IMG/VR virus record: IMGVR_UViG_3300036852_000085
Coordinates: 1-59,237 of that record
Source of the DNA: a virus
DNA length: 59,237 nucleotides
Direction: 5' to 3' (one strand)
In this document: positions 4,360 through 5,885 of the stretch, piece after piece
Position numbering within the stretch: the first letter of the stretch is position 1
Layout of the letters: each line of letters starts with the position of its first letter
Made by a program: the position numbers and the translations under genes
Notes under the pieces: model-generated
Databases searched by the model: none
What the model was told of the DNA's origin: nothing
What the model saw: the letters and a program-made list of their open reading frames with translations, nothing else

Positions 4360-4462
4360 TTTCCCCTGCTCACAGAGAGCCCCTCACGCCCTATGTAGAC
4401 CAGGCCGGACGGGGGCTCTCAGCTCACCGTGGGACCCTGAGCTAGACTGGACACACGGGCGC
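4360..4462. repeat. Left edge of the duplicated segment (matches 1-103 inverted)
   Basis: Exact inverted counterpart of 1-103. I read this as the left 103 bases of a 1,526-bp inverted repeat, 4360-5885. It holds a CACCGTGG word (4425-4432). Confidence 0.95.
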
Positions 4463-4494
4463 TCAGCTCAGCCCAACGCTCAGCTCAGCCCAAC
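4461..4494. repeat. 17-base perfect tandem duplication
   Basis: GCTCAGCTCAGCCCAAC occurs twice head to tail (4461-4477, 4478-4494), starting within two bases of the point where identity with the left window end stops. Confidence 0.9.
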
Positions 4495-4832
4495 CGGATA
4501 CCCCCCCCTCCCCCATTCGGCCAAGGCCTCAGTCTGTCCAGATAGGACAGTACACATAGGACACATAGAGATCCTTGATCATGAAGCCCAGCCCGACCCG
4601 AGCCCCCCTGTCCCCCTCACGTGCTGCGCCAGCCCAGACCTGAGCCCCCAACGCTCAACCCTGGGCCAGCCAAGAGGGAAATGATCATGGATCAGTTGTC
4701 CTGGCCTGCAAAGCCCAGCCTAACTTCTGACTACACCATAATCCCATGGCTCTTCTTCGATGTCTTGGATCGAGGGGTCTGGGTTGGCTGGGCCTGACGG
4801 GTGTCCTTGCCTCCATGGACTTATAAACATTG
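4495..4832. other. Non-coding stretch in the duplicated segment
   Basis: I see no convincing gene. The stretch is pyrimidine-rich (runs of C) and has a pair of CACATAGGAC-like words near 4547-4575 and the AT-rich TTATAAACATTG near 4821-4832, which could be a -10 region for the gene at 4894. Confidence 0.4.
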
Positions 4833-4893
4833 ATGTGCATCTTGATATGCATCTTTAAACCATGTGCATCTTCGACCTGGAAACATGTGCATC
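4833..4893. repeat. Four ATGTGCATC-type repeats (operator or iteron-like)
   Basis: ATGTGCATCTT (4833), ATATGCATCTT (4845), ATGTGCATCTT (4862) and ATGTGCATC (4885) lie in the same orientation within 61 bases, running right up to the ATG at 4894. The spacing is irregular (12, 17 and 23 bases). They could be binding sites of an autoregulator or replication iterons. Confidence 0.75.
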
Positions 4894-5256
4894 ATGACCG
4901 AGGTCGTGATCAACGGGATCACCGAGGAACAGATCAGCCAGGACGCACCTCGGATGAGGGCCCTGCTGGCCATGAGGTACGAGAAGATCTGGCAGACCTG
5001 CGAGCCGCACATCAACGGTGACCGTCAAGCCAAAGGACTGGGCAGCGATCCTCGCTTCATCGAGGCGGGGATCAGAGTGCTCAGGGATCTTGGGCGGCTG
5101 TACAAGCTGGACCGTCCCAGCCCTGGGGAACTGGTGCAGGCTACCGGGGTGGACGTGGCGGCGCTGGTGTCCACGCGCCTGGCTGAGCTGGAGGCTCGGA
5201 TGAGCCAGGCTGATCCTGGCCCGGGGGAGGCTGGGGAGCAGGAGACTCGTAGCTGA
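4894..5256 (+). CDS. Unknown 120-aa helical protein of the duplicated segment
   Basis: I take the ATG at 4894 (MTEVVINGITEEQISQD); an earlier in-frame ATG at 4864 would start inside the repeat array and gives an unlikely N-terminus. Neither has a strong ribosome site, so leaderless translation is possible. The product is all helix-like: EEQISQDAPRMRALLAMRYE, DPRFIEAGIRVLRDLGRLY, then GVDVAALVSTRLAELEARM. It could be a small DNA-binding or terminase-small-subunit-like protein, but I cannot place it. Its last 116 bases overlap the convergent gene 5141-5527. If the segment is duplicated, the phage carries two copies. Confidence 0.7.
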   Translation: MTEVVINGITEEQISQDAPRMRALLAMRYEKIWQTCEPHINGDRQAKGLGSDPRFIEAGIRVLRDLGRLYKLDRPSPGELVQATGVDVAALVSTRLAELEARMSQADPGPGEAGEQETRS

Positions 5257-5527
5257 TCGGCACCCAGGTACGAGTTGCGCTGTCCAGAGTGAAGGCCTGG
5301 AGCAGCAGCACACCGGTCTTCTTGTTGAACTTCGTGCGTAGCCGGTCCTGGCCCAGGCTGAAGCGGCGCAGGGTCCGGTAGGCGCGTTGCCTGAAGGTGG
5401 CGACGTCCTCGTGGAAGTCCTGGCCGAGGGTCAGTTCCCACAGGTGGCCGTTGAGCCAGTCGACCCACGGGTAGTCGAAGTCTTCATCTCGGACAATTCG
5501 GTCGCGTGGACCGCGAGAGGTCGCCAT
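5141..5527 (-). CDS. Unknown 128-aa protein, convergent with 4894-5256
   Basis: The start is the ATG at 5525-5527 (MATSRGPRDRIVRDEDFDY). A longer frame from 5593 would run across the CCGTARAA promoter-region repeats. The core (DYPWVDWLNGHLWELTLGQD, then TFRQRAYRTLRRFSLGQDRL) is globular and resembles short actinophage proteins of unknown function; the last 35 residues are Pro-rich (SPAPQPPPGQD, PAPPRPPR). That tail is exactly the part that overlaps the opposing gene, so it is likely an extension tolerated by both frames. No clear Shine-Dalgarno site is present. Confidence 0.65.
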   Translation of the reverse strand: MATSRGPRDRIVRDEDFDYPWVDWLNGHLWELTLGQDFHEDVATFRQRAYRTLRRFSLGQDRLRTKFNKKTGVLLLQAFTLDSATRTWVPISYESPAPQPPPGQDQPGSSEPPAQPGAWTPAPPRPPR

Positions 5528-5550
5528 GGCCGCCGAGTGTAGCAGTAGTT

Positions 5551-5576
5551 CCGTAGAACCGTAAAACCGTAGAACC
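5551..5576. repeat. Three tandem CCGTARAA units
   Basis: CCGTAGAA (5551), CCGTAAAA (5559) and CCGTAGAA (5567) are directly adjacent, followed by CC. They lie 24 bases upstream of the leftward gene at 5527, where a repressor or activator array would sit. Confidence 0.8.
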
Positions 5577-5620
5577 AATCTAGCCAAGATCAACTAAGAA
5601 AGCCCAGGTCAAGAGCTAGA

Positions 5621-5765
5621 GTTTTTTCGGTTTTATGAGACTGGTCAGAATCGGAAAGGGTAGGTAGTTAAAAGGGGTTGTCCGATTTGCCCTGGTCTGT
5701 GCTCGGGCCTCAGATTCTGTGGCCGCTACTTTCCTTTCGGGAGAATCTCATAAAACCGAAGAAAC
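5621..5765. repeat. 20-base inverted repeat flanking a 105-base spacer
   Basis: Bases 5621-5640 and 5746-5765 are inverted copies with one mismatch, sharing the core TTCGGTTTTATGAGA. They lie in the gap between the leftward gene (start 5527) and the rightward gene (start 5861) and could bring bound proteins together or form a cruciform. Confidence 0.8.
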
Positions 5766-5767
5766 AA

Positions 5768-5885
5768 TTTAGTGGGTGAAATGTCCCTGAATGTTCCCCT
5801 GGGGATCCTGGAGTCCTTAGCTTACTTCCAGGGGGAGGGGTATGGGAGTATAGTGGGGGGATGAAGACTGTGAGTGTGAGCTGGG
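5768..5885. repeat. Right edge of the duplicated segment (matches 59120-59237 inverted)
   Basis: Exact inverted counterpart of the last 118 bases of the window. It covers the promoter-like region and the first eight codons (MKTVSVSW) of the gene at 5861, so the same promoter and N-terminus face outward into both arms of the large single-copy region. Confidence 0.95.
5828..5860 (+). promoter_or_regulatory. Shared G-rich promoter motif, copy 1, and strong RBS
   Basis: CCAGGGGGAGGGGT (5828-5841) is followed by TATGGGAGTATAGT and GGGGGG right before the ATG at 5861. The identical 14-mer precedes the gene at 55197, and a form one G shorter precedes the gene at 47089. The TATAGT can serve as a -10 box. 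The inverted copy near 59170 would serve the leftward right-hand arm. Confidence 0.6.

Follow-up and report, generated by a model that had tools for sequence, protein, structure and literature searches.

The window analysed here is the whole of a 59,237-nucleotide contig (IMG/VR record IMGVR_UViG_3300036852_000085), a soil-phage sequence that carries near its left end a segment of 1,526 base pairs (bp), hereafter R, whose two edges recur in inverted orientation at the two contig ends. Direct sequence comparison across the contig showed that bases 1-103 are the perfect reverse complement of 4360-4462 and bases 59120-59237 that of 5768-5885, with zero mismatches in both cases, which confirms the edge coordinates given in an initial annotation of this DNA. 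The match breaks off immediately beyond the edges (base 104 against 4359, base 59119 against 5886). BLAST of the contig on itself recovered the same three repeat places, and inverted matches of at least 20 bp between separate places were limited to the two edge pairs, the only other being one local palindrome of 28 bp (45445-45472). Perfect inverted matches as long as these (103 and 118 bp) lie far outside what chance would produce in 59 kilobases (kb).

The contig is ordered as the last 103 bp of a second copy of R (R'), a small single-copy region (X), R, a large single-copy region (Y) and the first 118 bp of R' (Table 1). X meets the inner edge of R at each of its ends, and Y meets the outer edge at each of its own. 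The visible part of R' comprises 221 of 1,526 bp, and the counterpart of 4463-5767 lies outside the contig; when these bases are added, 59,237 + 1,305 = 60,542 = 2 x 1,526 + 53,234 + 4,256, so that the closable 60,542-bp circle of the initial annotation is arithmetically correct. To judge from this layout and from that of the related contigs, the map is very probably quadripartite, with two inverted copies of R dividing a circle into the large Y and the small X.

Table 1. Features of the inverted-repeat map in the 59,237-nucleotide window (GC, guanine plus cytosine; ORF, open reading frame; aa, amino acids)
Feature	Position	Strand	Description	Remark
R' tip, X edge	1..103	-	103 bp	exact reverse complement of 4360-4462
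X	104..4359		the smaller single-copy region (4,256 bp; GC 67.7%); short ORFs of no known function, mostly - strand	homologous genes in X of relatives
R	4360..5885	+	one fully assembled inverted-repeat copy, 1,526 bp, oriented from X edge to Y edge	exact edges; 14 relatives have a homologue carrying p1 and the 20-bp element
Hairpin	4375..4420	+	GC-rich, terminator-like, at X edge of R, close behind last X genes	z -0.9 here
20-bp element	4836..4855	+	conserved, TGCAT(G/C)TTGATATGCATCTT, upstream of p1	
p1	4894..5256	+	120-aa protein	family in 15/15 genomes with readable R (14 relatives and window)
p2	5141..5527	-	second ORF encoded in R, convergent with p1	present at least here and in G010 (39.8% identity over 83 aa)
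TATAGT-N6-ATG	5849..5863	+	leaderless-type promoter pattern and start codon within Y edge of R	motif only
First gene, left Y arm	5861..6454	+	first 8 codons in R	
Y	5886..59119		large single-copy region, 53,234 bp; RusA arm (+) left, virion genes (-) middle, primase/polymerase arm right	
First gene, right Y arm	58659..59144	-	start codon and first 8 codons (MKTVSVSW) in R' tip	
R' tip, Y edge	59120..59237	-	118 bp	exact reverse complement of 5768-5885

Relatives were collected from IMG/VR with the portal protein of the window (42730-44646), which retrieved 80 at 37-72% identity, and with p1, which added 3 further contigs. Repeats were then sought at the contig ends of the 24 relatives that were read, the window being G000 in this survey. 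Of the 14 clade contigs longer than 50 kb (window included), 12 have ends that repeat exactly, in inverted orientation, the edges of an internal R-like segment, the exceptions being G006 and G022. With the 33-kb contig G014 the set comprises 13 contigs and 17 junctions, with 1,584 bp of exact matches altogether, and the related contigs with the same layout come from other metagenomes. Both junctions are visible in four contigs, cleanly in G000, G008 and G021 and with short tips in G001. R measures 1,526 bp in G000, 1,172 bp in G008, 1,353 bp in G021, about 1,407 bp in G001 and about 1,412 bp in G014 taken with G007. Neither a direct terminal repeat nor a direct end overlap was found in any long clade contig.

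Three of these records (G007, G013 and G014) represent one phage, possibly with shared reads, and are 100% identical over overlaps of 28-37 kb. G007 consists of Y alone, with inverted ends of 123 bp, and G014 extends one of these Y ends through the whole of R into X, stopping 113 bp inside R'. In G017, whose identity to G001 is about 93%, the sequence crosses the Y edge and extends for another 150 bp, 123 bp of which can be aligned to R; at this Y end G001 has only 34 bp. Further same-species assemblies joined at the other Y end were searched for and none was found. Near the Y end of G010 (58374-59704 of that contig) many direct repeats of 34-41 bp were observed; the R/Y edge of this contig falls in repetitive coding sequence, which makes its 97-bp tip less certain than any other in the set. 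Within each genome the visible repeat bases are identical, G001 with its short left tip being the one exception. The long inverted repeat and quadripartite circle first proposed from the window alone are therefore supported by the junctions and arrangements of independent relatives.

The edges of R fall on gene boundaries. A hairpin was located at the X edge in 6/6 genomes, with z values from -0.9 to -5.5, five relatives giving -2.5 to -5.5 at the same place. At the other edge, R stops 0 to about 45 bases after a start codon, which in most relatives sits just inside R at each end of Y; the two arms of Y therefore open with genes that have a putative promoter, the start codon and as many as about 15 codons in common (MKTVSVSW in the window). 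The pattern TANNNT-N6/7-start occurs at 9 of 11 R/Y edges, against 7% of all gene starts (52/722), and is absent at the R/Y edges of G010 and G023. Every readable R contains a member of the p1 family and the 20-bp element, which is present once per R; close matches to TGCATGTTGATATGCATCTT (at most 3 mismatches) are confined to R in the 15 p1-bearing genomes, and since the element is read in different frames, it appears to be conserved as DNA.

No match to p1 was obtained in Pfam, NCBIfam or PDB. A weak match to PHROG_645 was given by 9 of 11 members of the family, and the associated 'Rnase E' label is weak (2.4e-5) and was not relied on. The idea that p1 is a small terminase subunit, which its sequence pattern had suggested, was dropped for want of support in Pfam, NCBIfam or PDB. 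Comparison of bases 1-6500 as DNA, and of p1 as protein, with cultured phages yielded no match. The sole contig match that could have placed R in a bacterial genome (L198) proved to be fortuitous and to lie within a region of bacterial genes.

The position of the complete copy varies among the relatives. In 7 genomes full R is joined to Y at its RusA end and in 8 at its primase end; mapped on a tree with 15 tips built from three virion proteins, the side of full R required 6 Fitch changes, near the maximum of 7. The side is unrelated to phylogeny, and sister genomes differ, for example in the pairs G001/G008 and G003/G014. The polarity of X varies as well: the xA gene is distant from full R in G002, G008, G014 and G021 (likewise in G000, by synteny of another X gene) and close to it in G003, G010 and G019. 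The relatives together show all four pairings of an X end with a Y end, which requires R to be next to each end of each region. That the small arm flips, as the initial annotation had envisaged, is a plausible fit to these data.

That two copies of R are present in inverted orientation is well supported, and it is the part of the explanation we hold most firmly. The explanation as a whole, namely a map (circular or circularly permuted, about 60.5 kb) on which two inverted 1,526-bp copies of R are homogenised, let the genome isomerise and form a duplicated expression module, is given a probability of roughly 0.8. Under this explanation R and R' would both be complete and identical, and would collapse in short-read assembly. 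They would be homogenised by homologous recombination or gene conversion, and crossing-over between the inverted copies would flip X relative to Y. The outer edge of R, with its promoter and start codon, may start both Y arms, and the hairpin at the inner edge may end transcription from both sides of X, as the motifs suggest. Each junction type is alike on both sides, and therefore inversion alters no gene; both isomers would express the same genes. The edges of R are identical within a genome and very different between relatives (88.6% over 123 bp for G001 and G017, for example), a pattern that points to concerted evolution by recombination or gene conversion. The phage codes for a RusA-type resolvase and exonuclease-like proteins, and these could take part in the recombination. 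The proposed mechanism, with R as a duplicated expression module homogenised by recombination, is considered likely, its chances being put at about even.

Several points weigh against this explanation. No contig contains two full copies of R, and for this reason we infer the interior of R' and its full identity from the relatives. The overhangs range from 24 to 123 bp and never reach the 127 bp expected for clean entry into a collapsed repeat at k = 127, which we take to be the final assembler setting at the Joint Genome Institute (JGI); the 123/123 ends of G007 would fit k = 123, presumably also among the JGI settings. Dead ends at low-coverage junctions of a multi-k assembly are proposed to account for the short overhangs. 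In almost all long contigs one Y junction is passed and the other failed; contigs of Y only would also be expected, and G007 alone was found. Real flipping would give the mix of isomers seen among relatives, and arbitrary joining by the assembler at a collapsed repeat would be equally expected to do so. A role of R as promoter and terminator is predicted from sequence motifs, and the hairpin of the window, taken by itself, is without significance (z -0.9).

The overhangs also bear on the alternative that survives best, in which only one complete R exists and the second site consists of short inverted copies of its edges (about 100-150 bp each) that form the physical ends of a linear genome, R' having no p1/p2 interior. 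Tips that never exceed 123 bp, with contigs stopping there in many samples, are what such a genome would give, and the interior of R' is never seen beside the visible tips in the same contig. However, full R occurs at either end of Y and at either end of X in different relatives, sister pairs G001/G008 and G003/G014 included, and therefore a single-R genome is no explanation unless R moved repeatedly. Moreover, G017 goes on beyond the 34 bp visible in G001, and tip lengths vary without pattern between relatives. We regard a single complete R as improbable.

Still less probable is a site-specific invertible segment of the kind of the phage P1 C segment or the Mu G segment, in which the 20-bp element would be the crossover site and inversion of X would switch expression. 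The geometry resembles that of P1, whose C segment (32225-36480 of L203) is a stretch of about 4.2 kb between long inverted repeats, exact over 562 bp in P1, and one conserved 20-bp element per R would suit such a site. P1, however, encodes Cin and switches tail-fibre genes, whereas no recombinase family was found here, no tail-fibre genes were recognised in X, and inversion would change no gene, as both junctions of each kind are identical. Serine recombinases (PF00239) were found in 0/14 clade genomes, with 10/14 control genomes positive, and tyrosine recombinases (PF00589) in 0/14, with 14/14 controls positive, a search that a strongly diverged Flp-like enzyme could escape; these results argue against a Cin-type switch. 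The P1 C segment measures 4,256 bp, exactly the length of X, which was taken as coincidence.

An assembly or library artefact, with fold-back or chimeric joins at contig ends, where such artefacts do occur, is scarcely credible, since the same junctions occur in 13 contigs of separate IMG/VR records, with different sequences and at equivalent gene boundaries, and the outermost Y gene needs the tip, which holds its start codon (59144). A fold-back artefact of this single assembly, one alternative named at the outset, is excluded by the equivalent junctions in independent relatives. The other, a collapsed-repeat assembly, is retained in that collapse is how a real repeat pair appears in short-read contigs, and is set aside as a rival to the two-copy map.

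Among known systems, the map belongs with those in which an inverted-repeat pair separates two single-copy regions. Plastid genomes have this type of map, and two isomers are known from long reads for the chloroplast genomes reported in PMC7145664. The present genomes differ in that their genes are those of tailed phages, R spans 1.2-1.5 kb and contains two small genes, and candidate isomers are seen among contigs of different relatives. Herpesvirus genomes have unique regions bounded by inverted repeats and undergo isomerisation, the packaged isomers being linear with terminal repeat copies; here the genome is that of a phage, and no terminal copy is visible. The yeast 2-micron plasmid is a circle with two recombining inverted repeats that uses Flp. 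No Flp-type enzyme was found in the present genomes and GC skew gives no sign of a replication role for R; a replication origin in R was suggested by the skew of G000 alone, not by that of the clade. Related portal proteins (32-39% identity) and similar portal/head/tail gene blocks are found in the actinophages phiAsp2 and SilentRX and in G011 and G012. The first two, among the nearest cultured phages, have no inverted repeat longer than 35 bp, and the distant relatives G011 and G012 (portal identity 39% and 37%) differ in that they are closed by direct end overlaps and lack p1.

The two single-copy regions also differ in composition. GC content is 67.7% in X against 60.8% in Y of the window, X being GC-richer in 7/8 genomes compared, and the tetranucleotide profiles of X and Y correlate less than those of Y chunks do with each other. 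The X proteins of the window gave no convincing match in Pfam or PHROG, and X of the relatives yielded only a DUF7447 protein, matches to HNH-endonuclease PHROGs and unlabelled PHROGs. R or X as a known mobile element was rejected, the Pfam and PHROG comparisons of X proteins in the window and relatives being unsupportive. One X protein (1463-2353, - strand) carries a repeated GYDxDGYNxxGFD-like motif and has homologues (34-39% identity) in X of G008, G014 and G021. A 23-bp direct repeat in X (1427-1449 and 2847-2869) lies ahead of two genes. In Y, a tRNA-Met gene (CAT; 45315-45389, + strand) is situated between the portal and terminase genes and is followed by the 28-bp palindrome, and two neighbouring ParB-like or DUF6551-type genes (52760-54357, + strand) lie beside the primase/polymerase gene.

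Circles split into two invertible parts by long inverted repeats are known from plastids and some plasmids, and herpesviruses have a linear form of this arrangement. No tailed phage with such a map was found in the open-access literature, most subscription journals being outside the scope of the search, and as far as found the architecture is known elsewhere and new for tailed phages. For the clade as a whole, it may be, at about even chances, that these uncultured, actinophage-like tailed phages have quadripartite genomes of a plastid-like, isomerising kind, and that a duplicated regulatory module (promoter facing outward, terminator inward, p1 and the 20-bp element), kept identical by concerted evolution, places both outer Y arms under the same control. 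If the map is real, automatic pipelines would be likely to miss such genomes, because their contigs lack a direct end repeat and would pass for linear or incomplete sequences though nearly complete. Such genomes would also raise the questions of how genome isomers are packaged, how the identity of the copies is kept up and what roles p1 and the 20-bp element play.
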